Below, in pieces: positions 3,632 to 59,814 of a stretch of DNA of 64,000 nucleotides. The DNA comes from Stenotrophomonas raiganjensis (SeqCode). Lineage in GTDB: Bacteria > Pseudomonadota > Gammaproteobacteria > Xanthomonadales > Xanthomonadaceae. The notes beneath the pieces were generated by a model, which worked only from the letters and a program-made list of their open reading frames with translations, was not told where the DNA came from and did no database searches. The stretch covers positions 1-64,000 of the forward strand of contig NZ_JAUTXR010000173.1 in NCBI RefSeq assembly GCF_030658505.1, given 5' to 3'. Made by a program: the position numbers and the translations under genes. Position 1 is the stretch's first letter; each line of letters begins with the position of its first letter.

Positions 3632-4777
3632 ATGAAACGCGCCCTGCGCATCCTGCACACCGAAGCCGCCAAAGGCATGGGAGGCCAGGAGATCTACATC
3701 TTCCGCCACATGCAGGTGATGCGTGCCCGTGGTCATGAGGTGTCGCTGCTGTGCCAGCCCGATGCGCGCCTGGCCCAGCTGGCACGTGAGGATGGCTTCA
3801 CCGTGCACACCCTGCGCATGGGCGGCCTGGCACGGCTGCTGGGTGGCATCTGGGCGGTATCGCGCCTGACCCGCCGTGAACGCTACGACGTGGTCAACAC
3901 CACCAGCCGTCGCGACGCCCTGATTGCAGCCGCTGGCGCGCGCCTGGGCGGTACCCCGCTGGTGGTGCGTTCGCGGCACTTGATGAGCCCGATCAATTCC
4001 CTGCTCACGTATACCGGCCTGCCGCACCGGATCATCACTGTCAGCGACTTCGTCAAGCGGCTGATGGTCGACCGTGGCATCGCTGCGGAACGCATCGGCA
4101 TCGTGCCGCCCATGGCGATGCCGCCACACTGGGACACCGCCGGGCCTGCCGACGCCTGGACGGAGCTGCAGGACACCCGCGCGCAGGTGCGCGCTGAACT
4201 CGGCTTCGCCGAGCGCGATATCGTGGTCGGCTGCGTGGCCGTGCTGCGCGAACCCAAGGGCCATGCCGAACTGCTGCATGCCATCGCGCCGTTGTGCAAG
4301 GCCAACCCCGACCTGCACCTGGCCGTCGTAGGCGACGGCGAGCCAGTGATGGGCCGCCTGCAGGCCCTGCGCAGCGAACTCGGCCTGGACCGGCAGGTGC
4401 ACCTGCTCGGCTTCCGCAGCGACGCCCATCGGCTGATGGCCGGTTTCGACATCTTCGCCCTGGCCACCCACAAGGAGGCGTCGGGCACGGTCTTTCTCGA
4501 AGCCGCCCAGGCGGCGCTGCCGATCATCTCGCACCGCGTCGGCGGCGTACCTGAAATGCTGGTGGAAGGCAGCAATGCCATCCTCGTCCGGCTGGGCGAC
4601 GAGGCCGCTCTCACCGGCGCGTTGCGCCTGCTGGTGGACGATCCGGAACGGCGGCGGCAGATGGGCCGTGCCGGTTGGGACTGGATCCGCAGCACCGCGC
4701 GGTTCAGTGCGGCCGGCCACGGCGAGGCCACCGAAAATTATTACCTCCAATGGCTGAAGGAGCTGGGTCATGGCTAA
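3632..4777 (+). CDS. Glycosyltransferase family 4
   Basis: A 381-residue GT-B glycosyltransferase. The N-terminal Rossmann half begins MKRALRILHTEAAKGMGGQE. The C-terminal half holds the nucleotide-sugar site with the EX7E motif (EASGTVFLE, about residues 282-290), followed by GGVPEML. It transfers a sugar from an activated nucleotide donor; donor and acceptor are unknown. The start at 3632 has AGAGG 9 bases upstream, whereas the ATG at 3623 abuts that site and is unlikely. It lies 18 bases after the sulfatase-like gene and overlaps the deacetylase by 8 bases, so the three are co-translated. Confidence 0.88.
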   Translation: MKRALRILHTEAAKGMGGQEIYIFRHMQVMRARGHEVSLLCQPDARLAQLAREDGFTVHTLRMGGLARLLGGIWAVSRLTRRERYDVVNTTSRRDALIAAAGARLGGTPLVVRSRHLMSPINSLLTYTGLPHRIITVSDFVKRLMVDRGIAAERIGIVPPMAMPPHWDTAGPADAWTELQDTRAQVRAELGFAERDIVVGCVAVLREPKGHAELLHAIAPLCKANPDLHLAVVGDGEPVMGRLQALRSELGLDRQVHLLGFRSDAHRLMAGFDIFALATHKEASGTVFLEAAQAALPIISHRVGGVPEMLVEGSNAILVRLGDEAALTGALRLLVDDPERRRQMGRAGWDWIRSTARFSAAGHGEATENYYLQWLKELGHG

Positions 4778-5627
4778 TGCCCGAACCGTACCGGTGCTGA
4801 TGCACCACCATGTCAGCAATTCGCCGGGGATGATCACCGTATCCCCGGAGAACTTCGAGAGCCAGATCGCCTGGCTCGCACGTACCGGCTGGACATCGTT
4901 GACGCTGGACCAGTACGCCGACTTCCTTGCCGGCAAGCCGGTCCCGCGCAAATCGATCGTGATCACGTTCGATGACGGCTACCTCGACAACTGGGTCTAC
5001 GCGCATCCGATCCTGCAGAAGTACGGCATGCATGCGGTGGTGTTCGTGGTTACCGGCTGGATGCACGAGGGCCCGATCCGCCCGCATGCAGGCATCGAAG
5101 GCGCCGAGCTGCCGGCCACGCCGGAACATCGCGCCTGCGAAGACCTGATCTACAAGCAGGGCCGCAGCGACGAAGTCATGATGCGCTGGAGCGAAGCGCG
5201 TGCGGCAATCGAAGCCGGCACGTTCGAGGTCCACTGCCATACCCACAGCCACACCCGTTGGCTCAAGCGCGATGACCTGGACCGTGCACAGCGCCGCGAA
5301 GGCATCAGCGGCGACCTGGCCATGGCGAAGCAGACGCTGCTGGAGAAGCTCGGCGAAGTCTCCGATACGCTGTGCTGGCCCTATGGCGACTTCGACGATG
5401 ACTACATCGAAGTGGCACGCGAACAGGGCTTCCGCTACCTGCACACCACCCACCCGTTCGGTCGCAACGTGGTCGGCGGCGATCCGGAGCGCATCTATCG
5501 CTTCGCGATCCGCAACCGGCCGGCCAGCTGGCTGCGCAAGCGCATCGCCTGGAGCTACAACCCGCTGATCGCGCCGATCTTCAACGGCTTCAAGGCCCGG
5601 CAGAAGAAGATGGTGCCGGGCCCGTAA
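4770..5627 (+). CDS. Polysaccharide deacetylase family protein (NodB homology)
   Basis: 285 residues with the carbohydrate esterase 4 motifs: the FDDG metal/catalytic motif near residues 67-70, the metal-binding HTHSH near 157-161, and WPYG near 205. Such enzymes remove N-acetyl groups from cell-envelope or extracellular polysaccharide. No signal peptide or membrane segment is evident, which suggests that it acts on a cytoplasmic lipid-linked precursor, as some LPS-sugar deacetylases do. It overlaps the end of the GT4 gene by 8 bases. Together they may add a sugar and then deacetylate it. Confidence 0.87.
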   Translation: MANARTVPVLMHHHVSNSPGMITVSPENFESQIAWLARTGWTSLTLDQYADFLAGKPVPRKSIVITFDDGYLDNWVYAHPILQKYGMHAVVFVVTGWMHEGPIRPHAGIEGAELPATPEHRACEDLIYKQGRSDEVMMRWSEARAAIEAGTFEVHCHTHSHTRWLKRDDLDRAQRREGISGDLAMAKQTLLEKLGEVSDTLCWPYGDFDDDYIEVAREQGFRYLHTTHPFGRNVVGGDPERIYRFAIRNRPASWLRKRIAWSYNPLIAPIFNGFKARQKKMVPGP

Positions 5628-10734: not shown

Positions 10735-11415
10735 TCAGGCACATCCTTCAATCAGTTCAATCGCATCGCTGGTCCCCCAGTACATCCGGGTGACCTTCCC
10801 TTCATAGAGTTCCAGGCGGATGCCCAGGTCCGAGCCCGGGTCCTGCCAGGTGAGGTACTCGCCCTGGTCGCCGTCATAGGCATGCGGGCTGGACACCGGC
10901 GGATTCGGAAACTGCGCCATGGCCTGTGCGCGGGTCATGCCGACGCGCAGGCCAAACGGACCGGGCTGCTCAACCGGCAGCTCCGGGTCGTCACCCGGCT
11001 TCAGATCGAAACGCACCACGCGCTCGTCATCGGTCATCATCGACACGCCGGCCGGCAGCGCCTTGCCATCGTAGTACTCGCAGTCGCCTTCGAAGAACTC
11101 CTTCGCGCCCTGCGCTTTCCAGGGACCCAGGGCCTTCAGGTCACTCATGTGCTGGCCGACCAGCACCTCGCCGGCATGATCCAGCGCCACCGAGGCCACT
11201 GCAGGCACGTCGTCGCTGTCCGCGCCTTGCGCAGACGGTGGATCGACGATCGGCGTACGCGCCATCGGGTCGAGGTCATCGTTGGCGGCCGGCTGCTGGG
11301 CCGGCTGCGTGGTGGCCTTGGCGGCCGGTGCCAGCACCGGCGGTTCCGGCGGCTGGCACGCGGCCAGGCCCAGCGCCAGCAGAAGCACGCCGCTGTTGCG
11401 CAGCAGCGCGCTCAC
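10735..11415 (-). CDS. Lipoprotein of unknown function between trpB and trpA
   Basis: 226 residues. A signal sequence with the lipobox LAAC gives a lipidated Cys at about residue 20. A Pro/Ala/Gln linker follows to residue ~75, and then a compact domain with repeated short motifs ([26 protein letters not shown]) and two late cysteines. The GTG start overlaps the trpB stop as GTGA, and the stop lies 1 base before trpA, so it is translationally embedded in the trp genes. I do not recognise a family. Its extracytoplasmic location makes a direct part in tryptophan synthesis unlikely. Hitchhiking on the operon's expression is one explanation. Confidence 0.75.
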
Positions 11416-12629
11416 AGGACCAGCCCTTCGCGCGCGGCGATGGTGTGCACGTCCTTGTCACCGCGGCCGGACAGATTGCAGAGGACGATCTGGTCGCGCG
11501 GACGCTCGCGCGCCAGCTTGATCGCCTGCGCCAGCGCATGGCTGGACTCCAGCGCCGGCAGGATGCCTTCGGTGTGGGCCAGCAGATGGAAGGCCTGCAA
11601 TGCTTCCTCGTCGGTGATGCCGAGATAGCGTGCGCGACCGGTATCGGCCAGGAACGCGTGCTCCGGGCCGACGCCCGGATAGTCCAGGCCTGCCGACACC
11701 GAATGGGTCTCGATGATCTGGCCGTCGTCATCGCACAGCACATAGGTGCGGTTGCCATGCAGCACGCCCGGACGGCCGGCTGCAATCGAGGCGGCATGGC
11801 GGCCGGTGCTGATGCCATCCCCTGCCGCTTCAGCACCGACGATCTCGACCTGGCGGTCGTTGAGGAAGGCATGGAACAGGCCGATGGCATTGCTGCCGCC
11901 GCCGACGCAGGCCGTGATCGCATCAGGCAGGCGGCCGTACTCGGCCAGCATCTGCTCGCGCGCCTCGCGGCCGACGATGGCATTGAAGTCACGGACCATG
12001 CGCGGGTACGGATCCGGGCCGGCCACGGTGCCGATGATGTAGAAGGTGTCCTGTACGTTCGTCACCCAGTCGCGCATCGCTTCGTTGAGCGCGTCCTTCA
12101 GGGTGGCCGAGCCGGAGGTGACCGGCACCACCGTCGCACCGAGCAGCTTCATGCGGTAGACGTTGATCTTCTGCCGCTCGATGTCGGTGGCGCCCATGTA
12201 CACCACGCATTCCAGCCCCAACCGCGCGGCCACCGTGGCACTGGCCACGCCATGCTGGCCGGCACCGGTCTCGGCGATGATGCGCTTCTTGCCCATCCGC
12301 GCGGCCAGCAGTGCCTGGCCGATGGTGTTGTTGATCTTGTGCGCGCCGGTGTGATTCAGGTCCTCGCGCTTGAGCAGGATCTGCGCGCCGCCGACATGAT
12401 CGCTGAGGCGCTGGGCATGGTAGATCGGGCTCGGCCGGCCTACGTAATGGGCCAGGTCGCGGTCATAGGCGGCCTGGAATTCGGGGTCTTGGCGGGCCTG
12501 GTCATAGGCCTGGGCCAGTTCCTGCAGCGGGCCGACCAGGGTCTCGGCGACAAAGCTGCCGCCGTAGCGGCCGAAGTGACCCCGGGGATCCGGGAAGGCG
12601 TGGTAGTCGGCAATGGGGGAGGCAGACAT
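11412..12629 (-). CDS. trpB: Tryptophan synthase beta chain
   Basis: 405 residues. It condenses indole with serine to tryptophan using PLP. The PLP lysine is K98 in HTGAHKINN; the phosphate loop is GGGSNA and the C-terminal serine motif is intact. It opens the trpB-lipoprotein-trpA-accD-glmM series and is divergent from a LysR regulator 96 bases away, as trpBA and trpI are in pseudomonads. Confidence 0.95.
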
Positions 12630-12725: not shown

Positions 12726-13613
12726 ATGAGCCGCTCCCTGCTTCCGCCGCTCAATGCCCTGCGGGCGTTCGAGGCCACCGCCCGTCTTGGCGGCGTCGGC
12801 CGCGCCGCGCAGGACCTGCACGTCACCCACGGCGCGGTCAGCCGGCAGCTGAAGCTGCTGGAGGATCACCTGGGCCTGGCATTGTTCCAGCGTGCCGGTC
12901 GTGGCCTGCGCCTGACCGCGGCGGGCTCGCGCCTGCAGGCAGCGTGCAGCGAGGCGTTCAACGGCATCGAAGATTGCGTGCGTGAACTGCGACGGCCGGC
13001 GGCAGCGCAGGCGCTGGTGCTTGGGTGCAGTGGCAGCGTGCTGGCGCGCTGGATGATCCCGCGCCTGCCTGCACTCCAGGCCGCCCTGCCAGGCGTGCGC
13101 CTGCAGTGGTCGGCGCTGGATGGCAGTTTCACCGAAGCCCAGGCTGCTCTGGATGCCGTGCTGCTGCTGGCGCAGGGACCATGGCCCCGTGGCTGGCAGG
13201 TACGCGAACTGGCACCGGAACGGGTTGGCGTCGTGGTGGCCCCCTCGCATCCGGCGGCGCAGCGCCTGCGGCAGGCACCGCCCACGGCACTGCTGCCGGA
13301 AACATTGCTGTACACCAGCTCTCGGCCACAGGCCTGGCCCGCGTGGGCGCAAGCGCACGACCTGGATCCGTCGAAGCTGCAGCTGGGCACCGCCTTCGAG
13401 CATCTGTACTACCTGTTGGAGGCGGCGGTGGCCGGGTTGGGCCCGGCGATCGCACCGGAGCCACTGGTGGCCGAAGACCTGGCTGCGGGCAGGCTGGTCG
13501 CACCGTGGGGATTTGCCGCCACGGGCGGATTCTGGGTGCTGGCGCGGCCAGAAGGACAAGCCGATGCGCGCGTGGATGCGCTGGCCGACTGGCTGGGCCA
13601 GCAACTCCGCTGA
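12726..13613 (+). CDS. LysR-family regulator divergent from trpB (TrpI/GcvA-like)
   Basis: 295 residues. The winged helix-turn-helix lies in residues ~8-65 (LNALRAFEATARLGGVGRAA, then HGAVSRQLKLLE), followed by a linker helix and an effector-binding domain. The N-terminus resembles the GcvA/TrpI branch. In Pseudomonas, TrpI sits divergent to trpBA and activates it in response to indole-glycerol phosphate; the same geometry here suggests control of trpB. The effector is inferred, not shown. Confidence 0.8.
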   Translation: MSRSLLPPLNALRAFEATARLGGVGRAAQDLHVTHGAVSRQLKLLEDHLGLALFQRAGRGLRLTAAGSRLQAACSEAFNGIEDCVRELRRPAAAQALVLGCSGSVLARWMIPRLPALQAALPGVRLQWSALDGSFTEAQAALDAVLLLAQGPWPRGWQVRELAPERVGVVVAPSHPAAQRLRQAPPTALLPETLLYTSSRPQAWPAWAQAHDLDPSKLQLGTAFEHLYYLLEAAVAGLGPAIAPEPLVAEDLAAGRLVAPWGFAATGGFWVLARPEGQADARVDALADWLGQQLR

Positions 13614-13615
13614 CA

Positions 13616-13682
13616 ACAAAAAGGGTCGGAGGGGATCAAGTCGCAGGTGGCACAAACGACTTAATCCCCTCCGTCCCCTTTT
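13616..13682. terminator. Bidirectional terminator formed by a long inverted repeat
   Basis: The arms begin AAAAAGGGTCGGAGGGGATC and end in the near-complement CCCCTCCGTCCCCTTTTT, with A- and T-runs on the outside. It sits between the convergent LysR and telA-like genes and reads as a terminator on both strands. A related copy is at 59730-59814. Confidence 0.7.
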
Positions 13683-13683
13683 T

Positions 13684-14793
13684 TCAGGCGGCGGCCGGGG
13701 TGGCCAGGCGCTGCTGCAGATCCTCGCGCAGGCGCGACAGCTCCACTTCCGCCTGCTGCCGCTGCTGCATGCCTTCGCGGTGGATGCTGCGCACTTCTTC
13801 CACGGTCGCGATCAACTGGTCGTGCACGTGGCGCAGCGTTGCCACGTCGATCACGCCGCGCTGGTTGCTGCGCGCGGTATCCACCGAGGCCTGGCGCATC
13901 AGGTCCGCATTGCGGCGCATCAGCTCATTGGTCGCGTCGTCGATGGCGGTAGCCAGCTCGGCGGCAGTCTTCTGCTCGCCCAATGACAACTGGATCGCGA
14001 ACTGGCGCTTCCACGATGGGATGGTGATGTCGCGGACCGTGTTGAACTTCTCGATCAACTGCAGTGCATTGGCCTGGATCAGGCGGATCATCGGCAACGA
14101 CTGGTCGGCGGCATGCTGCATCAGCTGCAGGTCGGACACCCGCTTGTCGATCAGGCGGATCGCGTTCTCGATCTCACCCAGGCGGATGCGCTGCTGGGGG
14201 TCCTCACTGCCCTGCCCGGCCTGCTGCTCGGCCTGCAGTTCGGCCAGGCGCTGCTTGCCCGCAGCGGCATACAGGCCCAGTGCGTGGCGTTCTTCGCGGA
14301 CGATATCGTGCATGCGGTCGAACTCGCCCACGCGCTTGGCCATCAATGCCTGCTGCACGCCGACATCGCCCAGCAACTGTTCGATCTGCGCATTGGTGTC
14401 GCTGAACTTCTGGACCAGTTCGCCCCTGGAAGCGCGCAGCCGGTCAAGCAGGCCACCAATCAACGGCACCTTGGAGCGCTGCGCGAACCCATCAAGCTTG
14501 AGGCTGCGCGCAATGCGCACGACTTCGCCCAGCTTCTCGCCACTGGCATCGAGATCATGGTTGCGGACCTGGTCCAGCAGTTGGCTGGAGAAGGCGGCGG
14601 TGCGGTTGGCGGCATCGCGACCAAACACCTGCAGGTTGCCTGGGCGCAGGTCCTCCAGTTCACGGCTGATCTCGGCAATGCGTGGCAGATCCTCCTGAAC
14701 GAGGCCCAGTGCCCGCAGCGTACCCTCATCGATCGGCGTGGCGATGGTCGTACCGGGCACGAGGGCACCCGGGGTCTGGCTGTCCTGGGTCAT
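13684..14793 (-). CDS. TelA-family toxic anion resistance protein
   Basis: 369 residues, almost entirely helical, with the TelA (PF05816) pattern: DLRPGN in the first 60 residues, SKVPLIGGLLDRL near 120, FNTVRDITIPSWKRQFA near 250, and NADLMRQASVDTARSNQRG with a coiled-coil tail. TelA was named for tellurite resistance, but its biochemical role is unknown and homologues occur in Ter-type stress clusters. The ATG at 14793 has AAGGAG 8 bases upstream; an earlier in-frame ATG (14841) overlaps the previous gene. It is the last gene of a five-gene operon. Confidence 0.85.
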   Translation of the reverse strand: MTQDSQTPGALVPGTTIATPIDEGTLRALGLVQEDLPRIAEISRELEDLRPGNLQVFGRDAANRTAAFSSQLLDQVRNHDLDASGEKLGEVVRIARSLKLDGFAQRSKVPLIGGLLDRLRASRGELVQKFSDTNAQIEQLLGDVGVQQALMAKRVGEFDRMHDIVREERHALGLYAAAGKQRLAELQAEQQAGQGSEDPQQRIRLGEIENAIRLIDKRVSDLQLMQHAADQSLPMIRLIQANALQLIEKFNTVRDITIPSWKRQFAIQLSLGEQKTAAELATAIDDATNELMRRNADLMRQASVDTARSNQRGVIDVATLRHVHDQLIATVEEVRSIHREGMQQRQQAEVELSRLREDLQQRLATPAAA

Positions 14794-14837
14794 TGGGCAG
14801 TCTCCTTGCGGTTGGATAGGCGGCAACGACGGCCGGC

Positions 14838-15539
14838 TCACGGCAGTCTAGCCTGAGCCGCCGCCACCTCGTCATCGATCTGCGCGTGCAGCGTGGCGGC
14901 CTTCGCCGCCAGCGTGGCAGCGGCAACGGCCTGGCCCGCCAGTGCGGCCTGTCGCCAGGCCGGCAGCAGGACATCGTGGATGCGCGCGAAACGCTGCAGC
15001 AGCACGTGGTCCTGGTCCTGCAGCAGCTGCCACTGGCCAGCCTCAAGACGCCGCAGCGTCGCCAGCCGGCGAAGGTGGTCCAGCCGTTGCGACAGCGCAG
15101 CCTGGCCCGCGGCATCACACTGCGTCAGACGCGATGCAGCCAGCTCCGCCCAGGCGTCGAGCGCTGCGGCAGCCTCCGCATGCTCGACGATCGCCGAGGA
15201 CCGCAGCTGCAGGTGATGCTGCAGGCGCTGCGCCTGCTCGCTTGCCTGCAGGGCCAGCACGCCCAGTTGCGCCTGCAGTGCACGCCCTTCCGCCTCGCGG
15301 GCGACGTCGCGCCCAAGCAGGCGCCCCCACCAGCCTTCCTCGCGGCGGATCCGCGCAGGATTGCCAGCCTGCAGGGCCTGGGCGATGCGCGCCAGCGCAG
15401 CCACCAGGCCTTCACCGGCGGCCTGCGGCAGGCTCACCTCGCGCAGGGCCAACGCCTGCAACAGTGGTGCACCGTAATCGGCCAGCGTGGCGACATCGGC
15501 CGCGTCAGGCAGCGTCGGCGGCGGCAGTGGCGCGGTCAC
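14838..15539 (-). CDS. Uncharacterised helical protein between the AAA+ ATPase and TelA genes
   Basis: 233 residues, very rich in Ala, Leu, Gln and Arg, with long predicted amphipathic helices and no signal peptide, membrane segment or Cys cluster. I recognise no family. The GTG start overlaps the ATPase stop as GTGA, and TelA follows after 44 bases, so it is produced with both. A basic patch (RIRREEGWWGRLLGRD, residues ~64-79) could be a membrane- or protein-contact site. By context it is probably an adaptor of the ATPase-TelA pair; this is inference. Confidence 0.7.
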   Translation of the reverse strand: MTAPLPPPTLPDAADVATLADYGAPLLQALALREVSLPQAAGEGLVAALARIAQALQAGNPARIRREEGWWGRLLGRDVAREAEGRALQAQLGVLALQASEQAQRLQHHLQLRSSAIVEHAEAAAALDAWAELAASRLTQCDAAGQAALSQRLDHLRRLATLRRLEAGQWQLLQDQDHVLLQRFARIHDVLLPAWRQAALAGQAVAAATLAAKAATLHAQIDDEVAAAQARLP

Positions 15540-18500
15540 GGCAGCGGTGGCGGCGACGGTGTTGATGCCGGCATGTCCTCACCATCTTCATCTTCCGGCG
15601 GCAACGACTCGCCGTAGAAGTGGCGCATCAGCGCTTCATCCAGTGCACGTTCCTCCGGCGTCGAGGCACGGCGCACGCGCGCACGCTGCGCCACCGCGGC
15701 GCCTGGCGCGCCGCGCTCGACCTGCTGCCGCGCCCAACCGGCGAACGCGGCCAGCGTCTGCGACACCTGCACCTGCTGCACCTGCGACGCTGCCAGCAGT
15801 TCGACCAGCGGTGCCAGCCCGGCCTGCAGGTCTTCGGCCAGGACCGTGGCCGGCTTGCTGGGGAGCGTTTCAACGGGCACCGGCGCGGCCGGTGCAGCAC
15901 GTATTTCAGAAAGGCGATGCAGGGCCTCCAGCAACGCCGGCCACGGGGCCGGATCGGCGACCGCTTCCGGCACCGGCGCGGGAAGCTGCAGGGCGCTGGC
16001 GATGTCGGCCAACTGCGCTACCACGCGCCCGCCGACATCACTGTCGTCGGCCCCCATCGCCTTGTTGCGCAGGAAATCGCGCTTGATCTGCGCCCAGCGC
16101 TGCGCTTGCGCGTCATCCAGCACGCCGCGCAGCTCGGCCAGCTTCAGCAGGTTCTCCTCGGCACCCGTGGTCAGCAGCTGCGCCTCGCCCAGATAGTGGT
16201 CGGAGATCAGCTGCTGCAGCTCGTCTTCGTTCATCACCGGCGAGATCTTCTCGGCCAGTTTGTTCATGTTGCGGTAGCTGCCCTGCAGCCGGAATGGCGG
16301 TTCGGTACGGTAGCGATCGTCCTGCGCGGCGCTGGCAATGTACTGCTGGTTGACCCGGTAGACCACGTCGCGCACGCGCAGCATCCGCTGCAGGGTGGCA
16401 GTGATCTCGTTGATCTCCGCGCTGCTGTAGGCGTGGCCGAGACCGTTGGTCGAGACCTCCTTGCCCATCGCGCGGTCGACCAGCACGTACAGGTCGGCCA
16501 TGTCACGCGTGGCCAGTGGCGCCAGCACCGGGTTGGAGGTCAGGCCGTTCTCGATGTAGCTGAGGGTGAACGCCGCCTCCATGCCACCGAGCACGTCGCC
16601 GAGATTGTAGATGTCGGCCCGGTTGGCGAGCATGTCGGGAATCTTGAACACTTCGCCGGACTCGGTGTACGGGTTGCCGGCCATCACCACGCAGAACTTC
16701 TTGCCACGCATGTCGTAGGTGCGGGTGCGGCCGCGCCACACGCCTTCGATGCGGCGGGTACCATCGCACAGCGAAATGAATTTCTGCAGGAACTCGGGGT
16801 GGGTGTGCTGGATGTCGTCGACATACAGCATGGTGTTGTTGCCCATTTCCAGCGCCAGGTTGAGCTTCTCCAGCTCCTGCCGCGAGGTTGCGTCCGGCGC
16901 CTGCGCCGGATCCAGCGAGCGCACCTCGTGGCCCAGCGCCGGACCGTTGATCTTCATGAAGACCAGGCCGAGGCGGTGCGCCACGTATTCCATCAAGGTG
17001 GTTTTGCCATAGCCCGGTGGCGAGATCATCATCAGCAGGCCCATCAGGTCGCTGCGCTTGTTCTCGCCGACCGTGCCCATCTGCTTGGCCAGGTTATCGC
17101 CGATCACACCCAGGTAGACATCGTTGATCAGCTTGTTGCGCACGAAGGACGACAATGGCCGTGCCTTGAACTCGGAAAGGCGCAACGTTTCACGCTCGCG
17201 GCCGATGATGCCCTGGCGCAGTGCCTGGTAGGCATGGAAGGCCGGCACGAAGTGGCGCACGTGCTGCTGCAGGCGCGCCAGGAAATCGTCCAGTGACAGG
17301 GCAAGCGTGCCATTGCCGATGCGCGCGTGCTCGCCGAGCAGGCCGCTGACCTCCACCCGCAGCGCCGCGTCACTGGCACGGGTGCGCAGCTGCCGTTGCA
17401 CCAGCAGCAACGCAGCGGCTTCATCGACATAGCCGGCGTGCTGGTCATGCGCAGGCATCCGCGCCACTGCACGCAGCCACTGGCCGGCCAGTGCCCAACG
17501 CGTGGCCAGCGGATCCTGGCCGCGCTGCAGAGCACGCTCGACCGCCTCGCGCTGCCCCGCCTGCTCCAGTTGCTGCGCCAATGCCTCCAGCAGCGCCACG
17601 GCATGGCGGCTGCTGGTGAACACGGGCTCTCCCGCCGCCAGCTCTTCGCCCAGATAGGCGGCCGCAGCCTCTGCGGCATCGGCATCGAAGGGCAAGGCAT
17701 GCGACTGCGCATAGGCCAACAGCGCTTCGGCCATCTCCACGCGCAACGCCTGCCGCCCCTCATCGGAACCGAACAGTCGCGCCAGCGCTTCGGCGCCGGC
17801 CTGCCGCGACGGCCATTGCGCCACCCCCTCGCGACGTTGCTCGGCTGCCCAGAACAGCAGCGCCAGCGCGCGCACCTGCGCTGTATGGCGCAGGCTGCCC
17901 GCGGCCTGCTGCAGCGGCAGCAGCGCGCGCAGGATGAGGGCTGCATCGTGGTCATGGATGCCACGCTCGTAGCCTTCGCGATAGCGTGGTGCGGCAAACG
18001 CACGCACGCGCTGATCCAGTGCTTCCGGGTTGGCGACGTCGTGCTGCAGCGCAGCCAGATCGAGGCCGTCGCGCCCCTCCTGCGCGGCCAGCAGCAGGCT
18101 GCCGGCCAGGTACTCGCCGCGATACAGCGTGGGCGATTCCGAGTCCAGGGTGACCGGCCAGAATGGCTTCAGTGCATCCAGTTCCGGGTCATGCAGGGTC
18201 TCCAGGAAATCCGTGCCAGTGAGGTGGATCGCCAGCGTGTCACCCCGCGGCAGCAAGGTCAGATCCAGCGCCTGGGTGTTGACGCTGAAGCGATGGCGCG
18301 GGCCCAGCCGCACCACGTTGCCGCCGGCTTCGTACAGGTCACTGCGGTCGCGCAGCTGTCGCACCGCCTGGTCACGCACGCCCTTCAGCCGCGCCTCGAT
18401 GTCGTCGGCCTTGACGTTGTCATGCAACGTACGCAGGCGCTCGGCCAGCTCGCGCAGCTTGAGGATCAGCGGATCGCCGGCAAAGAACGCGTTGAGTTCA

Positions 18501-20926
18501 TCGGCGGTGGCGAAGCGCTCGGTCCGCTTGGCCAGGCCATCAAGAATGCGGTTGGCCGCATCCAGCACCGAACGCGCCTTGCGCTGCCGGTCATCCAGCA
18601 ACGCCTGCTTGTGCGTCTCGAAGGCTTCGACCAGCTCTTCGCGCTTGCTCAGGATGTCGCCGAGGAACTGTTCGTGTTCGCCGAACTGGCTCTCCAGCTC
18701 TTCCAGCTGGACCAGCAGGCGCGACAGCTGCTCGTCGGCGCGCTCCGGGTCCGTGGCCAGCGCCAGCGCGCTGGTGATCGACTGCGAGAACAGCGCGAAC
18801 TGGGCCGCGAACTGGGCTACGGCTTCTGCCGAACCCAGCGATCTGCGCCGCTGATCGGCGCGCGCTCGCGCCTGGTTGAGGCGGCCGTACAGCACCGAGA
18901 TCGACTCGACCACGTGGGTGCGGGCAGTGGCATCGTCCACCTTCAGGCCGGCCATCAGCTCGGACAGCATGTCCAGGTCGGCCGCCATGCCACGCAGTCC
19001 CTCCAGCTGCTCATCCAGCTGGCGGGCCGTCTGTGCCTGTTGCGCGGCTTCGTCCAGCGCCTGCAGCCGCGTGCCAAGCGGCGCCAGCGCTGCCTCGCCG
19101 GCGAGGAAGACACCGGTGGCGGCGCCGACACGGTCCTGTGCCTCCACCAGCTCGGCGGTCATCGCCTCGATGCGCGCGGTATCGATGTAGCGCAGCTCGC
19201 GGATGGTCAGCAGCCGCCCGCGCAATGCGGTGATTGCATTGAGGGCCTCGACGAAGGCCTGTACCTCATTCCAGTTCTGCGGCTGCAGACGGCCCAGCAG
19301 CGCCTTGTGCGCGGCCTCGGCCTCGGCCATCGCCTGCGCCGACTGCTGGCGGATCGACTGCACCTTCTCGTATTCGTCCAGCACCGATTCGCCGGTGGCG
19401 CTGATCTGCCGCAGCAGCGCCTCGGCACCATCGCAGGCCTCGTCGCCCAGCCAGTGGTGGGTGTCGAACAGGCGGCGGGTATCGGCTACCAGGCGCTGGT
19501 AGCGCTGCACCGACACATCCTGGCCGTCGATCTCGCGCGCCAGGTTGAACAGGTTGGAGATGCCGCGCACCAGCTCAGCGTTGCCGATGCGGCCCATGAA
19601 CGTGTTGCCGGGCGGACGGCTGGCGGCGAACTCGTCCGTGCTGAAGGGGGTCTGCCAGACCTGCATGGGATGGATGCGGGTCGGTTCGCTGCCCTCGGCA
19701 TGGAACAGCACCATGCGCCCGTCCTGAAGGAACGCGTAGCCGTGGCCGAACACCGGGTTCTGCAGTACACGCTGGATGGTGTTGTAGACGAACAACGCCG
19801 AACGCCCACCTTCGCGCTCGTAGAAGATGTACAGCACGTCCTCGCCGTTCGGCGACCGGATGCTGCGCTTGAACTGCATGCCGGCCATCGAGGCGTCGAA
19901 TGCCTTGTGCTCGCCGCCCTGCAGGTAATACCCCCCCGGGAAGATCACGCCGTGGTCTTCGGGCAGCTGCACGCACGCCTGCACGATCGCGTCGTTGCGT
20001 ACGATGCTGCCGGTCAGTGTGTTGTAGATCAGGCCGCGCCACTCGGTCTCTCGGTAGGGCAGCACCTTCAGCAGCACCAGCGAGCCGACCCGGGCGAATT
20101 CGAACTGGGCGTCGTCCAGCGACTGCGTGCTGTCCTCCACCGGCTCGCTGTAGATGCCCTGGCCGGTCTCGGTGTTGTTCTCCACCTTGATGGTGAGATC
20201 ACCGCCGGTGGTCTCCACGAACAGGGTGTCGAGGATGTTCAGGTGCGAATGCCGGCCACTGACCGCAAGGTCGCGGGTGGCCTTGGTCCATTCGAAATCA
20301 AACGGCGGCGGCAATGCGATGTCGCGCTCGCCGCGCGCATCCAGATAGGTCAGTTCGCCTTCGCGCGACAGCGCCCAGCGGAACACGCGCACGTCACTGC
20401 TGCGCTCGCCGATCTGGAACGAGGCCAGCAGCTTGTCGCCCACCACGATCAGCTGCAGCAGGCGTGCGTGCTTGTAGTAGGCATACAGCTCGTTGAAGTC
20501 ATGCACGAAGCCCGGCTGGTCGAGGAAGCTTCCCTTCAGCTCGAGCGCGGCGACATCGTAACCATCGCTGCCCTGCACCAGCCGGTACAGGCCGAACACA
20601 TCTTCGATGCGGGTCTGGGTCTTGAGCCCGATGAACACGTTGTAGCCGAACAGCAGGCGGTCCGGCCCCACCTGCACGATGTCACGCCCGACGCAGTTGT
20701 TCTCGCTACGGATGCGGAAGCGCCCGACCACTTCCAGTCGGCTGTCGCCGAATTCGGCCAGCCGTTGGCGATTCAGCGTTTCGGCCAGGGCCTGCAGGCG
20801 CTGGCCCTGCTCGGCCAGGCGGCGGCGCAGGACTTCATAGGCGCCGCCCTGGGCGACGGCCTGGTCGACGGTGTTGCCGCCGGCCTCCGGCGCGGTGGAT
20901 TCGGCGGACGGATGGGTCTCAGACAT
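15536..20926 (-). CDS. Giant AAA+ ATPase of the DUF3686 / 'DNA repair ATPase' family
   Basis: 1796 residues. About the first 450 form a beta-rich domain with repeated WxLSREG- and YIFYEREGG-like strands (DUF3686-type). Residues ~500-900 are mostly coiled coil, and 900-1250 are helical. A C-terminal AAA+ module follows: Walker A GYGKTT with K1308, Walker B LYVDD at ~1370, and sensor AGNP near 1416. The tail holds an Ala/Pro-rich linker and an acidic end. The family name 'DNA repair ATPase' is historical; no nuclease or helicase motif is visible. An MoxR-like remodelling activity is more consistent with the motifs. GGAAG precedes the ATG. It lies 85 bases after the flotillin gene. Confidence 0.85.
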   Translation of the reverse strand: MSETHPSAESTAPEAGGNTVDQAVAQGGAYEVLRRRLAEQGQRLQALAETLNRQRLAEFGDSRLEVVGRFRIRSENNCVGRDIVQVGPDRLLFGYNVFIGLKTQTRIEDVFGLYRLVQGSDGYDVAALELKGSFLDQPGFVHDFNELYAYYKHARLLQLIVVGDKLLASFQIGERSSDVRVFRWALSREGELTYLDARGERDIALPPPFDFEWTKATRDLAVSGRHSHLNILDTLFVETTGGDLTIKVENNTETGQGIYSEPVEDSTQSLDDAQFEFARVGSLVLLKVLPYRETEWRGLIYNTLTGSIVRNDAIVQACVQLPEDHGVIFPGGYYLQGGEHKAFDASMAGMQFKRSIRSPNGEDVLYIFYEREGGRSALFVYNTIQRVLQNPVFGHGYAFLQDGRMVLFHAEGSEPTRIHPMQVWQTPFSTDEFAASRPPGNTFMGRIGNAELVRGISNLFNLAREIDGQDVSVQRYQRLVADTRRLFDTHHWLGDEACDGAEALLRQISATGESVLDEYEKVQSIRQQSAQAMAEAEAAHKALLGRLQPQNWNEVQAFVEALNAITALRGRLLTIRELRYIDTARIEAMTAELVEAQDRVGAATGVFLAGEAALAPLGTRLQALDEAAQQAQTARQLDEQLEGLRGMAADLDMLSELMAGLKVDDATARTHVVESISVLYGRLNQARARADQRRRSLGSAEAVAQFAAQFALFSQSITSALALATDPERADEQLSRLLVQLEELESQFGEHEQFLGDILSKREELVEAFETHKQALLDDRQRKARSVLDAANRILDGLAKRTERFATADELNAFFAGDPLILKLRELAERLRTLHDNVKADDIEARLKGVRDQAVRQLRDRSDLYEAGGNVVRLGPRHRFSVNTQALDLTLLPRGDTLAIHLTGTDFLETLHDPELDALKPFWPVTLDSESPTLYRGEYLAGSLLLAAQEGRDGLDLAALQHDVANPEALDQRVRAFAAPRYREGYERGIHDHDAALILRALLPLQQAAGSLRHTAQVRALALLFWAAEQRREGVAQWPSRQAGAEALARLFGSDEGRQALRVEMAEALLAYAQSHALPFDADAAEAAAAYLGEELAAGEPVFTSSRHAVALLEALAQQLEQAGQREAVERALQRGQDPLATRWALAGQWLRAVARMPAHDQHAGYVDEAAALLLVQRQLRTRASDAALRVEVSGLLGEHARIGNGTLALSLDDFLARLQQHVRHFVPAFHAYQALRQGIIGRERETLRLSEFKARPLSSFVRNKLINDVYLGVIGDNLAKQMGTVGENKRSDLMGLLMMISPPGYGKTTLMEYVAHRLGLVFMKINGPALGHEVRSLDPAQAPDATSRQELEKLNLALEMGNNTMLYVDDIQHTHPEFLQKFISLCDGTRRIEGVWRGRTRTYDMRGKKFCVVMAGNPYTESGEVFKIPDMLANRADIYNLGDVLGGMEAAFTLSYIENGLTSNPVLAPLATRDMADLYVLVDRAMGKEVSTNGLGHAYSSAEINEITATLQRMLRVRDVVYRVNQQYIASAAQDDRYRTEPPFRLQGSYRNMNKLAEKISPVMNEDELQQLISDHYLGEAQLLTTGAEENLLKLAELRGVLDDAQAQRWAQIKRDFLRNKAMGADDSDVGGRVVAQLADIASALQLPAPVPEAVADPAPWPALLEALHRLSEIRAAPAAPVPVETLPSKPATVLAEDLQAGLAPLVELLAASQVQQVQVSQTLAAFAGWARQQVERGAPGAAVAQRARVRRASTPEERALDEALMRHFYGESLPPEDEDGEDMPASTPSPPPLP

Positions 20927-21011
20927 CAGCAGGCTTCCAGCTCACGGGCGAACGGCCGCGGATGCGGCCGGCACGGGCGGGCGATGGCCAGGCCGGCCAT
21001 CGCCCGGTGCA

Positions 21012-23030
21012 TCAACGGGCGCTGTCGACCACGGAGGCCGGCACCACCGGAACCGCTTCGGCGTCCTCGGCGATCTGCCGCGGTGCCGGTTCGGCCACGG
21101 CCACGCCCAGGTAGCGCTGCATCAGCTCCTGCACGATCGGGCTCTTGCCGGCGAAGCCTTCGATCGACTTGCCGAGCGAGACCGCCTTGACCAGGTTCTC
21201 GAACATGCCGCCGTCACCGCCGACCAGATCGATGTCGGCATTGCGCAGCGCGCTGGCGATGACGTTGGCGTTCTCGCGCGAGACTTCCTTGCCGGCCTCG
21301 ATCGAGGCCAGCGCCTGCTTCAGGCTGTTGTCCAGCATCATGCGGAACTCTTCGTGGCCGCGTGCCTGGTCGCTCAGCGAGGCGATAGCCTCGAACTTGC
21401 GCACCAGGCCTTCGGCCTCGGCCAGCAGCTTCTTCTGCACCACGCCCGCTTCTGCGTTGCCCAGCGATTCGGCGGCGGTGGCACGGGCCAGGCCCATCTT
21501 CTCCTCGCCCTGTGCCTGGGCCTGCAGCGTTTCGGCCAGCACACGGGCTTCGTTGCTGCCCTGCTTCAGGCTGGCCTCGGCCTTCGCCTCGATCACACGG
21601 GCCTCTGCGATGCCGACCTTCTCGATGGCCAGCGCCGAGGCTTCACGCACCTGCGCTTCGGCCAGGCCCGGCGCCGCCTGTTCGGCACGCAGCGCGTCGG
21701 CAAGCAGGCGCTTGGCTTCGGCCTGCTTGCCCGCTGCTTCGTGCTCGGCCTGGGCCAGCGTGGTCAGTTCAACGGCACGATGCTTGGACGCGGTTTCGCG
21801 TGCCTGTGCTTCCTTCACTTCACGCACCAGCGACTCCTGCGCCTTGGCCTCGGCTTCCAGGATCAGCACCTGCTTCTGGCGGTCGGCCTCGGAGACTTCG
21901 CGCACCTCCTTGATGCGCTCCTCTTCCTGCGCCACGGTCTTGTCGATGGAGATGCGTTCGCGGGTGATGTTGGCGACGTCCATCTTGCCCTGCTCGACCA
22001 CCTTGTCACGCTCCACGCCCTGCAGCTGCACTTCGCGATCGGTGGTGACCTGCTCCAGCTGGCGTGCGCGCTCCACGCGCTCGGCTTCGATGGCCACGGC
22101 GCGCTGGCGGTTCTGCTCTGCCACTTCCACTTCGCGCAGGCGGTTCTGGTCGCGGATCTCGATCAGCTGCTGCGCTTCGATGCGGGCATTCTCGGACAGC
22201 TGGCGCTGTTCTTCCTGCACCTTGGCGGTCTCGGCCTCCTCGCGCGCACGGATGGTCTCGATCTCGCGCTTCTGCCGCGCTTCGGCTTCGGCCTGCTGGC
22301 GTTCCAGGGCCAGCAGCGCTTCGCGCGCTTCCACGTTCTTCTTGGTGATGGCGAGCTTCTCGTTCTGCTCCAGCTCGTTGGTCACCACGTTCTGCGCGGC
22401 GGTCAATTCGGTGATCTTGCGGATGCCCTGCGCATCGAGAATGTTGAACTGGTCCAGCAACGACTTCGGGGTCTGTTCCAGGTAGTCGATCGCCACGTCC
22501 TCGAGAACGTAGCCGTTCAGATCATTGCCGATCACCGCGATGATCTCGTCGCGGAACTCCTGGCGCTTCTCGAACAGTTCAGTGAAGTCGAACTTCTTGC
22601 CGACCGTCTTCAGCGCTTCGGAGAACTTGGCGTTGAACAGCTCGTCAACCGCATGCTTGTCCGAGGCCCGGTCGGCGCCGATGGCCTTGGCCACGCGCAG
22701 CACGTCGGCCTGGGTTTCATTGACCCGCAGGTAGAAGGCCACGGCAATGTCGGCACGCATGTTGTCGCGGCAGATCAGGCCTTCCTTGCCGCGGCGGTCG
22801 ATCTGCAGGGTGATCAGGCTGATCCGCATCAGCTCGGCGCGGTACAGCACCGGGATGATCAGCGCACCGGTGAAATGCACCTTCGGCGTGGAACTCATGT
22901 CGTTGACGATCAGGGCCACGCCCTGGTCGACCTTGCGGTAGAAGGCCTTGAACAGGCCGGCCAGGCCGAGCAGTGCGACCAGCAGGACGGCTACGCCGAT
23001 CAGGAAGGGAGCCATGGTTGCCAACGTCAT
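21012..23030 (-). CDS. Flotillin-family (YqiK-like) membrane scaffold protein
   Basis: 672 residues. An N-terminal membrane anchor (residues ~7-28) is followed by an SPFH/band-7 domain to ~residue 200. Next comes a long charged coiled coil built of Glu/Ala/Arg repeats (~220-520), and then the conserved flotillin C-terminal tail. Such proteins oligomerise into membrane microdomain scaffolds. It starts at TGATG, sharing one base with the stop of the YqiJ-like gene, and has AAGGAG upstream. E. coli has the same yqiJ-yqiK pairing. Confidence 0.92.
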   Translation of the reverse strand: MTLATMAPFLIGVAVLLVALLGLAGLFKAFYRKVDQGVALIVNDMSSTPKVHFTGALIIPVLYRAELMRISLITLQIDRRGKEGLICRDNMRADIAVAFYLRVNETQADVLRVAKAIGADRASDKHAVDELFNAKFSEALKTVGKKFDFTELFEKRQEFRDEIIAVIGNDLNGYVLEDVAIDYLEQTPKSLLDQFNILDAQGIRKITELTAAQNVVTNELEQNEKLAITKKNVEAREALLALERQQAEAEARQKREIETIRAREEAETAKVQEEQRQLSENARIEAQQLIEIRDQNRLREVEVAEQNRQRAVAIEAERVERARQLEQVTTDREVQLQGVERDKVVEQGKMDVANITRERISIDKTVAQEEERIKEVREVSEADRQKQVLILEAEAKAQESLVREVKEAQARETASKHRAVELTTLAQAEHEAAGKQAEAKRLLADALRAEQAAPGLAEAQVREASALAIEKVGIAEARVIEAKAEASLKQGSNEARVLAETLQAQAQGEEKMGLARATAAESLGNAEAGVVQKKLLAEAEGLVRKFEAIASLSDQARGHEEFRMMLDNSLKQALASIEAGKEVSRENANVIASALRNADIDLVGGDGGMFENLVKAVSLGKSIEGFAGKSPIVQELMQRYLGVAVAEPAPRQIAEDAEAVPVVPASVVDSAR

Positions 23031-23704
23031 CAGTGATTCTCCTTGTTGCCCGGAAGCAGGTTGTCCTGGAAGTCGAGGGCGACCGCGTCGGCGCGGACCA
23101 CCCGGTAATGGTGTTGATCAGCCACGTGCTCGACCAGCACGATGCGCTCGCCACGCTGCAGTTCGATGTCGCTGCGCACCTGCAGCACCAGTCCGGCGCC
23201 GCCATCGTCGAAGGTGGCGTGACCGCTGCGGGCATCCACTTTCGGCGAGGCGACCACCCCGGCACGCCCCAGCAGCGAGGCCTGCGCCACCGGGCGCAGG
23301 CGCAGCAGGAACCTGCGGATGGGGCGCAGCAGCAGCGCGGTGAACGGCACCGCCGGCAACGGCGCCAGCACGGCCACGACCGCACCGATCGACCAGCGCA
23401 GCAGGTCCGGCAGCGGCAACAGCACGAACAGGTGGACGAAATAGGTGACGATCCAGGCGAAGAAGCCCAGCAGCGTCACCACAAGCATGAGTGGGACCCC
23501 GCCCAGGCCCCAGCGCGCCAGCAGCGCGGACAGCCCCTGCAGATCATGCGAGTCGCCATGCAGCGCGCCATCGGCGCCGGCATCGCCAAACCCGTCGTCG
23601 ACCAGGCCGAAGGCCGCCAGTGCCCAATACAGCACCGCCACCGCCAGCACGATGCTGTACGGCAGGGTCGGGAAACCGAACACGACGGTGAGGAATTCCT
23701 GCAT
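23030..23704 (-). CDS. YqiJ-like membrane protein with C-terminal OB fold (NfeD-related)
   Basis: 224 residues. One transmembrane helix lies near residues 12-33 and two or three more at ~65-130, followed by a soluble beta-rich domain (residues ~145-224) of NfeD/OB type. NfeD-type proteins are habitual partners of flotillins. The ATG at 23704 has AGGAAGG 6 bases upstream; longer in-frame starts upstream lack a ribosome site. It is the first gene of the cluster. The 23705-23872 gap upstream should hold the promoter, but no clear -35/-10 pair was confirmed. Confidence 0.85.
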   Translation of the reverse strand: MQEFLTVVFGFPTLPYSIVLAVAVLYWALAAFGLVDDGFGDAGADGALHGDSHDLQGLSALLARWGLGGVPLMLVVTLLGFFAWIVTYFVHLFVLLPLPDLLRWSIGAVVAVLAPLPAVPFTALLLRPIRRFLLRLRPVAQASLLGRAGVVASPKVDARSGHATFDDGGAGLVLQVRSDIELQRGERIVLVEHVADQHHYRVVRADAVALDFQDNLLPGNKENH

Positions 23705-23872
23705 CGCTTGCCTTCCTGGGCTGTGGGCGGCGACCGCCCGTTCGGGACGCGCCGGACGCGCCCCGTCGATCCCCGCGCCGGCCCTCATGGCAGGCGCGCT
23801 TGGGTCCATCCTATGTGAAGAATGCGTGCAGGCTCAAATCCGGCTGCGAATCTCGACAAATAGTGACGCAGA

Positions 23873-24529
23873 TCACTCCAGCACCGTGCAGTCCGCGCGA
23901 CGCACTTCCTCGACGAAGGTACGCATTTTGTAACCGTCCTTGATGCCCGGTTCCAGTTCGATGCCGCTGGAGACATCCACGCCCCACGGCAATGTGGCGA
24001 GCACCGCGTCGTAGACGTTTTCCGGGTTCAGGCCACCGGCCAGCAGGAACGGCCGGTGCAGGCCGGTCGGAATCCGGCCCCAGTCGAAGGCCACGCCGGT
24101 GCCGCCACCGCCGCCCGGGGCATGGCTGTCGAACAGGAAGCCGGCCGCGCTGGGGTAGCGCAGCTGCAGGGTGCGGGCATTGACCTCTTCACGGCCGCCC
24201 ATGGCGATCGCCTTCAGGTACGGCATGTTGAAGCTGCGGCAGAAGCTCTCGTCTTCCTCGCCGTGGAACTGCAGCAGGGTCGGACGTACCGTGCGCAGCA
24301 CCTCACGCACTTCTTCCTTGCTGTTGTTGCGGAACAGCGCCACCACGTCGACCATCGGCGCGATCGCCTGGCGCATTGCGCGCGCCTCGGCCGGTGCGAC
24401 CCGGCGGCTGCTCTCACGGGCAAAGATGAAACCCACTGCGTCCACGCCCAGCTCACCGGCCAGGCGGACATCGCCAGCTCGGGTCATGCCACAGAACTTG
24501 ATGCGTGTACGGTAGTAGGAGCGGCTCAT
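23873..24529 (-). CDS. trpF: Phosphoribosylanthranilate isomerase
   Basis: 218 residues. It isomerises phosphoribosylanthranilate to CdRP, the third step of tryptophan synthesis. The signature [11 protein letters not shown] (residues ~11-21, catalytic Cys), [13 protein letters not shown], and the phosphate-binding GGLNPENV and DVSSGIE loops are present. The ATG at 24529 overlaps truA by 4 bases. Its pathway partners trpB and trpA lie 11 kb further along on the same strand, beyond the flotillin cluster. Confidence 0.94.
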
Positions 24530-25296
24530 AGCGTGACCTCGGCGGGCAGATGCCAGTTGTCGGGGTACAGGGGCCCAAGGAACACCAGGCCCTGCGGCGG
24601 TGCGGTGGGACCAGCTACGGTGCGGTCTCGCCCGGCCAGCAGTTCGGCGATCCATTCCACCGGTTTTTCGCCGCTGCCCACCAGGATCAGCGATCCGACG
24701 ATATTGCGGACCATGTGATGAAGGAATGCATTGCCCTGCACGGCGACCTCGATCACCTCGCCCTGGCGGCTGACCTGCAGTGACTGCAGTTCACGCCGTG
24801 CATGCAGTGCCTGGCACTGCACCGAGCGGAACGCACTGAAGTCGTTCTCGCCGAGCAGGGCCTGGCCGGCGGCATGCATCAGGGTCTCGTCCAGCGCGCG
24901 GCGCTCCCAGCTCAGGGTCTGCCGGTCCAGCGCCGGCCGCACTTCGCGGTTGAGCAGGCGGTAGCGGTAGCGGCGTGCGCGTGCGGAGAAACGCGCGTGG
25001 AAATCATCGGCCACCGGCACGCACCAGCGCACCGCGATCGAGCGCGGCAGGCGGGTGGTGGTGCCGAGCATCCAGGCGCGCGGATCGCGCACCACGTCGG
25101 TATCGAAATGGACGACCTGGCACTGGCCGTGCACGCCGGCATCGGTGCGGCCGGCACAAACCACCTGCAGTGATGCATCGGCGACCGACGACAGGGCCTG
25201 CTCGAGGCTGGCCTGCACGCTGGGACCACCCTCGCCCAGGTTCTGCCAGCCCCGGAAATCGCTGCCGTCGTACTCGACGCCAAGCGCGTAACGCAT
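24526..25296 (-). CDS. truA: tRNA pseudouridine(38-40) synthase
   Basis: 256 residues. It makes pseudouridine at positions 38-40 of tRNA anticodon stems. The catalytic aspartate is D52 in [10 protein letters not shown]; the N-terminal [10 protein letters not shown] and the C-terminal [11 protein letters not shown] motifs are intact. It overlaps trpF by 4 bases, the usual truA-trpF coupling. Confidence 0.95.
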
Positions 25297-59255: not shown

Positions 59256-59750
59256 ATGGAACACAAGAACACCATCTGTGTCTGGTACGACAGCGGCGCG
59301 CTCGAGGCCGCCACCTTCTATGCCAGCCTCCTGCCCGACAGCGCAGTCACTGCCGTCCACCATGCCCCCGGTGATTACCCAGACGGCAAGGAGGGCAACG
59401 TTCTGACGGTCGAGTTCACCGTCTGTGGCATTCCCTGCGTCGGCCTCAACGGCGGCAGCGCGTTCAAGCACAGCGAAGCGTTCTCCTTCCAGATCCAGAC
59501 CGAGGACCAGGCCGAGACTGATCGCCTGTGGAATGCGATCGTCGGCAATGGTGGGCAGGAGAGCCAATGTGGCTGGTGCAAGGACCGCTGGGGCATCTCC
59601 TGGCAGATCAGCCCACGCATGCTGATCGAAGCGGTGACCAGCAAGGACAAGGCGCTGGCCAAGCGTGCCTTCAACGCGATGATGCCGATGAAGAAGATCG
59701 ACATCGCGACCATCGAAGCGGCAATCAAGAAAGGCGACGGAGGGAATTAG
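59256..59750 (+). CDS. PhnB-like VOC family protein
   Basis: 164 residues with one VOC domain of the 3-demethylubiquinone-9 methyltransferase-like (PF06983) type: CVWYDSGALEAATFYASLLP, FTVCGIPCVGLNGG, and GGQESQCGWCKDRWGISWQ. Metal and substrate are unknown. The ATG at 59256 has GGAG 8 bases upstream. The last seven codons (KKGDGGN) and the stop lie in a repeat arm. Confidence 0.85.
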   Translation: MEHKNTICVWYDSGALEAATFYASLLPDSAVTAVHHAPGDYPDGKEGNVLTVEFTVCGIPCVGLNGGSAFKHSEAFSFQIQTEDQAETDRLWNAIVGNGGQESQCGWCKDRWGISWQISPRMLIEAVTSKDKALAKRAFNAMMPMKKIDIATIEAAIKKGDGGN

Positions 59751-59814
59751 GTCGTTTCTCCCCATTGCCGCTCGCCCCATGCAAACTGCGACTTGATCCC
59801 CTCCGTCCCCTTTT
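59730..59814. repeat. Inverted repeat overlapping the 3' end of the PhnB-like gene
   Basis: The left arm (AAAGGCGACGGAGGGAATTA) and the right arm (GATCCCCTCCGTCCCCTTTT) are near-complementary across a 45-base spacer. It is the same family as 13616-13682. The left arm encodes the protein's C-terminus. Confidence 0.65.

Follow-up and report, generated by a model that had tools for sequence, protein, structure and literature searches.

How a flotillin, a giant AAA+ ATPase and a TelA-like protein came to lie together between trpF and trpB, and what they might do there, is the question raised by five reverse-strand genes at positions 13684 to 23704 of a 64,000-nucleotide stretch of Stenotrophomonas raiganjensis (contig NZ_JAUTXR010000173.1, positions 1 to 64,000; hereafter the window). 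A first-pass annotation had described a cluster with an inserted look for which no known system of exactly this make-up came to mind. We found instead that the first three genes are those of an operon already described (PMC11237479) and that the last two match the klaA-klaB pair of plasmids. With middling confidence, we read the cluster as a PspA-less derivative of a YqiJ-flotillin-DUF3686/AAA+ envelope machine to which a plasmid-type klaA-klaB pair has been added; in the identity of the parts our confidence is high. This reading builds on direct observations, namely the gene identities, a fixed gene order, co-occurrence in genomes and the finding of no PspA in the genus.

In operon order, the cluster begins with a YqiJ-like gene (23030-23704, minus strand) encoding a YuaF-like, small membrane protein of OB-fold type, with 224 amino acids counted from an ATG conserved in relatives; the longest possible open reading frame (ORF) begins at 23809. 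The protein scored 11.8 bits against Pfam YqiJ_N, below the cut-off of 23, and three of its counterparts in other operons likewise had no Pfam match; by position and by a profile made here, it corresponds to the YqiJ-like gene of those operons. The second gene (21012-23030, minus strand; 672 amino acids) encodes a flotillin-type protein with an SPFH/Band_7 domain and coiled coil; an hmmscan run gave no family, and the Band_7 match (34.2 bits, above the cut-off of 23.6) came from a separate profile search. The third (15536-20926, minus strand; 1796 amino acids) combines DUF3686 (643 bits), DUF7902 and an AAA+ domain (AAA_5, 4e-7), with Walker A PPGYGKTT at residue 1303, Walker B LYVDD at 1367, sensor-1 AGNPYT at 1416 and NRAD, containing a putative Arg finger, at 1435. 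Residues K1308, T1309, D1370, D1371, N1418 and R1436 showed no variation across eight homologues; from what is generally known of AAA+ proteins, their roles are those of the P-loop Lys and Thr, the Walker B Asp, the sensor Asn and the putative Arg finger. The ATPase shares 95% identity with its homologue in S. maltophilia EA1 (L212). A KlaA homologue (14838-15539, minus strand; 233 amino acids) and a TelA/KlaB homologue (13684-14793, minus strand) follow, the latter with 369 amino acids when counted from the ATG that the alignment with relatives indicates, a GTG at 14841 being a possible alternative start. With the starts chosen here, the junctions are a 1-base overlap, 85 bases, a 4-base overlap and 44 bases, as annotated.

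The fourth gene had been left as an unknown helical protein, and we could identify it as a homologue of plasmid KlaA (KilA) by family profile. The TelA-like label of its neighbor held (PF05816, 240 bits), and the best plasmid match of this protein was klaB of RK2-type pUZ8002 (45.8% over 98%). The pUZ8002 gene directly before klaB, annotated 'toxic anion resistance protein', is KlaA by position, and in L293 the name KlaA is given to the gene at the matching position. A profile of the helical family matched the KlaA proteins of five plasmids with E-values of 2.6e-30, 2.3e-27, 1.3e-26, 2.8e-25 and 1.2e-7 in a five-sequence database, and hhalign of the family against KlaA gave 98.4% over 187 columns. 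As controls, shuffled (2000) and reversed (5) KlaA sequences scored 12.7 bits at best, compared with 78 to 94 for four real KlaA proteins and 20 for the fifth. When the ORFs of 110 loci, 20,344 in all, were searched at E<=1 with a profile of plasmid KlaA only, matches were confined to the helical family and TelA; the profile recovered 17 of 18 family ORFs (11 below 1e-6, the weakest at 0.11), missing that of L180. By phmmer, the window protein alone reached RK2-type KlaA at 1.1e-14. No Pfam or NCBIfam family scored above its cut-off for the helical protein, and NCBIfam was likewise uninformative for KlaA.

Profile comparison further indicates that KlaA and TelA are paralogues. The Pfam TelA cut-off (PF05816) was passed by all three KlaA proteins tested and was not reached by the helical protein of the window or by that of L215. 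Compared directly with TelA, the helical protein gave weak hhalign probabilities (5.2, 56 and 66%), and KlaA gave 92%; the kinship is convincing because KlaA serves as an intermediate. Homology of KlaA and KlaB has already been published by profile comparison (PMC5696584). AlphaFold predicts two long helices for the window KlaA, at residues 77-140 and 143-205 (predicted local distance difference test score 88.3). Judged by their sequences, the last two genes are thus a klaA-klaB pair of the plasmid kilA/FiwB-operon type. On plasmids, KlaABC constitutes FiwB, an inhibitor of IncW plasmid transfer for which KlaC is required (PMC5696584). The gene after telA in the window is a convergent lysR, and pUZ8002 KlaC gave no match in the window's own genome at E<=1, in a search that had no positive control.

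We then asked how constant the cluster is, using samples of 91 genomes of the genus, 149 of the family and 229 of the class. The ATPase was present in 56 of the genus genomes, and trpB and trpF were each found in 87. In all 54 carriers with the ATPase, trpF and trpB on one contig, the window included, the ATPase lies between the two on the same strand, and the order trpF-YqiJ-flotillin-ATPase-KlaA-TelA-lysR-trpB is kept together with the strand; the carriers G173 and G175 fall outside this count, either because a contig ends in between or because one of the genes was missing from the matches. In G181, the flotillin was covered to 48% only and the ATPase match was split in two pieces. Because order and strand are constant throughout, the five-gene arrangement is not due to chance, and the five genes can be taken as one unit, as the first-pass annotation had proposed. 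Its placement between trpF and trpB was also right, save that lysR lies between the cluster and trpB as well. PspA, DUF2170 and PLD were not found by profile in the trpF-trpB interval of any of the 54 carriers.

Most genomes without the ATPase show the site without the cluster. In 29 of the 35 ATPase-free genus genomes, trpF and trpB lie at most 4 kb apart, all 29 with lysR, and none of the five cluster genes was found at any of these sites; in 20 of them the gap, holding lysR, measures 1.0 to 1.22 kb. The remaining genomes have trpF and trpB on different contigs (two) or 204 kb apart (one), or yielded neither gene (three). Among trpB loci of other genera, trpF starts within the 1.5-kb flank in 16 of 24. 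The two genes therefore do normally lie close together, and the cluster is an insertion relative to other genera. We fetched 20 of the 35 carrier loci of the family outside the genus, and in none of the 20 was trpF or trpB present in the 19-kb stretch; these carriers thus hold the core away from trp, most family genomes lack the cluster, and an ancestral xanthomonad order is rejected.

The insertion is not a recent one. On a flank-gene tree covering 54 carriers and 28 empty sites, 82 genomes in total, presence changes at least 15 times, 14 of these changes being forced by starred branches, compared with a mean of 23.5 after shuffling; gain and loss are not distinguishable on this tree, and the flanks may recombine with the cluster. 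Distances of the five cluster proteins follow those of the flanks with Spearman coefficients of 0.89 to 0.94 (ATPase, 0.94). Since the cluster occupies one site genus-wide and its divergence tracks the flanks, it is a long resident of the trpF-lysR site, patchily kept, and not a fresh insertion, so the inserted look noted at first applies with respect to other genera only. We infer one ancient insertion at this site followed by many losses as the simplest reading. The cluster genes and the flanks have similar G+C contents (0.654 to 0.728 and 0.669 to 0.714, respectively). In separate observations on the same site, the otherwise empty trpF-lysR interval of L142 to L145 (G071, G124, G170 and G177) is occupied by another cassette (3145-5754 in L142), which encodes a 618-amino-acid protein in all four (PG_binding_1/NlpC_P60 in L142) and a lipoprotein-like ORF of 229 to 253 amino acids in three. 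This cassette resembles antibacterial effector-immunity pairs, and the trpF-lysR interval may be a place of variable gene content.

Patchy presence at a single site, with its many changes of state on the flank tree, would also suit a different function, that of a FiwB-like chromosomal barrier in which the AAA+ protein powers an action on membrane secretion or injection channels and so counters conjugation or phages. The block of IncW transfer by KlaABC (PMC5696584) favors this explanation; however, FiwB requires KlaC, which was not found here, and a search of the five proteins against PADLOC-DB at E<=0.1 gave LmuB (6.9e-4, ATPase residues 513-859), Csx19 (0.025) and nothing else. No obvious defence island was noticed among the ORFs of the 20 family loci, which were not scanned against PADLOC. 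The ATPase had no match in the phage collections INPHARED and IMG/VR, and TelA itself occurs in 84 phage records with no relevance shown. We consider such a barrier improbable overall and keep a FiwB-like conjugation block as a live rival. The suggested link to stress or phage response fared unevenly: what is known of the family makes a role in envelope stress plausible, and a phage or defence link was rejected on the weak PADLOC matches and on the want of anything convincing for the ATPase in INPHARED and IMG/VR.

The last two genes are closely tied to the ATPase. Within the genus, TelA was detected in 55 of 91 genomes, every one an ATPase carrier, and in none of the 35 ATPase-free genomes; the sole ATPase carrier without TelA, G173, has its ATPase at a contig end. 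Two TelA-bearing genomes contained one more match each, below the family cut-off. In the family sample, TelA was found in 15 of 149 genomes, all among the 36 ATPase carriers (15/36 versus 0/113); 12 of the 15 genes adjoin the ATPase by coordinates, and G090, G100 and G138 have TelA elsewhere. Fisher tests gave 2e-24 for the genus and 4e-11 for the family, on genomes that are related and hence not independent draws. PspA (PF04012), a usual partner, gave no match in the window's genome or elsewhere among the 91 genomes of the genus, and the same profile detects two PspA proteins of family relatives at 159 and 186 bits. Ravi et al. 2024 suggest that the abbreviated operons might draw on a PspA from another locus (PMC11237479); here there is no recognizable PspA to be borrowed in this way.

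Outside the genus, the core is wider than the pair. DUF3686 occurs in 36 of the 149 family genomes and the ATPase in 4 of the 229 class genomes, the window's genome included in both. All 20 fetched family loci contain the YqiJ-like gene, flotillin and ATPase together, so the core genes are not usually found apart; 15 have DUF2170 and PspA, 11 PLD, and 9 KlaA and TelA. We also examined named loci, the best 80 of at least 540 ATPase relatives from a scan of genome contigs: flotillin is present in 76, the YqiJ-like gene in 72, DUF2170 and PspA in 49, PLD in 27, and KlaA and TelA in 7. Where flotillin or the YqiJ-like gene is missing, the contig is short or ends there. All seven loci with KlaA and TelA belong to the xanthomonad family, which contributes 11 of the 80, and none of the other 69, some on short contigs, has the pair. 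In a plasmid collection, the ATPase was present on 12 records, several of chromosome size, among them pQBR103, which has genes for YjfI, PspA, SPFH and the ATPase.

These neighborhoods bear on two further explanations. The flotillin/AAA+ machine and klaAB might be independent modules that merely share a promoter, as the core lacks klaAB at most loci seen and TelA lies away from the ATPase in three family genomes. Yet TelA in the family is found only in ATPase-bearing genomes, klaA-telA adjoins the ATPase at 9 family loci that differ in their other genes, and the junctions in the window are tight, so we regard mere promoter sharing as unlikely. Alternatively, the cluster might confer chromosomal tolerance of toxic anions (tellurite), with KlaA and TelA acting as on plasmids and the flotillin and ATPase only aiding expression or membrane placement. 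The KlaB-like nature of TelA fits, klaB of pUZ8002 being assigned to tellurium resistance, and kilA is listed among tellurite determinants, with the mechanism given as unknown (PMC5437285). The failure to find klaC in the window's genome, in the search without positive control, speaks against it, as does the core without klaAB in 11/20 family and 73/80 named loci, by which tellurite is not the core's general job; tellurite tolerance stays a live rival with a low probability.

Returning to an envelope machine with an added klaA-klaB pair, we can sketch how it might work. Flotillin and YqiJ/YuaF proteins are scaffolds of membrane domains. The same role is described by Ravi et al. 2024 (PMC11237479), who propose ATP-dependent, ESCRT-like membrane roles for the core operon. 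In our tentative mechanism, the YqiJ-like protein and flotillin would make up a scaffold in an inner-membrane patch. The giant AAA+ protein would be recruited to this scaffold and, docked there, would use ATP to remodel long coiled-coil proteins at the membrane, by assembling them, pulling them apart or recycling them. Its client in relatives would be PspA, and here the paralogous KlaA and TelA; the outcome would be ATP-driven membrane repair or remodelling under envelope stress. Membrane remodelling could also account for an effect of plasmid klaA-klaB on both tellurite tolerance and conjugation. In a bolder version, which we think unlikely, an AAA+ disassembly machine anchored by flotillin would have KlaA and KlaB/TelA as its substrates and would form with them an ESCRT-like membrane remodelling system that does without PspA. 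Plasmid kilA/FiwB would then be a form lacking the machine, tapping or jamming the host membrane machinery instead; if true, it would explain lethality, tellurite tolerance and the conjugation block jointly.

Several points weigh against the envelope-machine reading. The cluster is dispensable, as the ATPase was not found in 35 of 91 genus genomes, and the core occurs without KlaA and TelA at the majority of loci just counted (11/20 and 73/80). Eight of the nine TelA-bearing family loci outside the genus also carry PspA, and the 35 ATPase-free genus genomes are likewise without it; KlaA-TelA is therefore not a simple PspA substitute. No PspA/ESCRT-III structure was among the matches listed for the KlaA model, whose best PDB likenesses are within the range of generic helical bundles. 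Contact of the ATPase with KlaA or TelA is so far putative. Taken together, the data nevertheless give the unsolved role of klaA-klaB a candidate engine and place of action, and the RK2 kilA (klaABC) puzzle a testable partner; in the genus, moreover, a flotillin-AAA+ machine occurs naturally in cells without recognizable PspA, so that machine and PspA are separable by simple deletions.

Regulatory elements were sought at both ends of the cluster. The leader (23705-23872, minus strand) contains a TTCACATAGGAT-like block, spotted by eye, in variants, in the 14 upstream sequences inspected of 54 extracted, which may be a promoter -10 region. A sigma-70 consensus scan listed nothing in 23705-23872, and it gave one promoter-like site within the ATPase gene, as many as shuffled sequences give. 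A sigma-54 promoter was rejected, a sigma-54-like site being present in just 1 of 54 carrier leaders. At the other end, the long inverted repeat at 13616-13682 (no strand assigned), which the first-pass annotation took for a boundary of the cluster, lies between the convergent telA and lysR, folds as a long hairpin (-44.5 kcal/mol on the telA strand) and has a diverged second copy at about 59733-59810 of the window. It is probably a bidirectional terminator and not an insertion end; it was not among the terminators reported by the consensus scan. A recent mobile insertion bounded by this repeat was rejected, given the second copy and a gene divergence that follows the flanks.

The flanking genes are trpF (23873-24547, minus strand; PRAI, 142 bits), the lysR-type regulator convergent with the cluster (12726-13613, plus strand; LysR_substrate, HTH_1) and trpB (11412-12629, minus strand; PALP, 149 bits). 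Between trpB and trpA lies a further gene (10735-11415) with a lipoprotein-like start by eye and no Pfam match; it is strongly variable, with 32 to 100% identity among genus relatives where found.

Some loci of relatives had additional neighbors. At 12 of the 110 loci scanned, the PspA-flotillin-AAA+ operon is found within an olefin hydrocarbon cluster or next to one; 11 of the 12 have a Lysobacter-like make-up. Six (L163, L165, L166, L181, L225 and L229) have oleA upstream and oleBCD downstream, and six (L162, L164, L168, L179, L253 and L255) have ole genes on one side; in L163, OleC and OleD score above their NCBIfam cut-offs. A functional link of this operon to membrane hydrocarbons is possible, and a literature search did not find oleABCD together with flotillin. 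L215 (Lysobacter xinjiangensis) has a second KlaA-like gene (4623-5378) upstream of DUF2170 in the same region. At 11 of the 20 family loci and 13 of the 80 named ones, the operon contains, or has close by, a small gene of 80 to 90 amino acids (e.g., L170 8430-8687 and L175 8209-8469), with sub-threshold EF-hand matches in L170.

Both halves of the cluster thus have published counterparts, and the first-pass remark on the want of a known system is not supported as it stands. Its first three genes correspond to the abbreviated YqiJ-flotillin-AAA+ form described by Ravi et al. 2024 (PMC11237479) beside the fuller DUF2170(CesT/Tir)-PspA-YqiJ-flotillin-AAA+(-PLD) operon, and the full form, with DUF2170, PspA and PLD, was found in relatives fetched here. 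From its coiled-coil and beta-propeller description, we infer that the AAA+ protein of that paper, given there without a DUF number in the part available, is the DUF3686 protein, a name not found in the open-licence literature searched. The cluster differs in lacking the DUF2170-PspA dyad and PLD in the interval and in having klaA-klaB; TelA is not mentioned in the main text of that paper. The bacABCDEF operon of Pseudomonas aeruginosa (PMC10948618) is headed by DUF2170 and PspA genes, and because several Pseudomonas loci read DUF2170-PspA-YqiJ-flotillin-ATPase-PLD, bacC-F are, by gene order, probably the YqiJ, flotillin, ATPase and PLD genes; bac has a sigma-54-like site, rare in carriers here, and no klaAB. 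With klaABC/kilA/FiwB of IncP plasmid RK2 and relatives (L292-L295; PMC5696584), the cluster shares adjacent, homologous KlaA and KlaB/TelA genes, KlaA first in all 54 carriers, whereas its pair is chromosomal, has no klaC found with it and is joined to a flotillin-AAA+ operon. The three-gene core and full operon, and klaABC as kilA/FiwB, are therefore already published. A union of klaAB/TelA with the flotillin-AAA+ operon was not found among the papers listed in searches of open-licence literature; what appears to be new is this union of klaA-klaB with a flotillin-AAA+ operon, so far seen in the xanthomonad family only and persisting in a genus without recognizable PspA.

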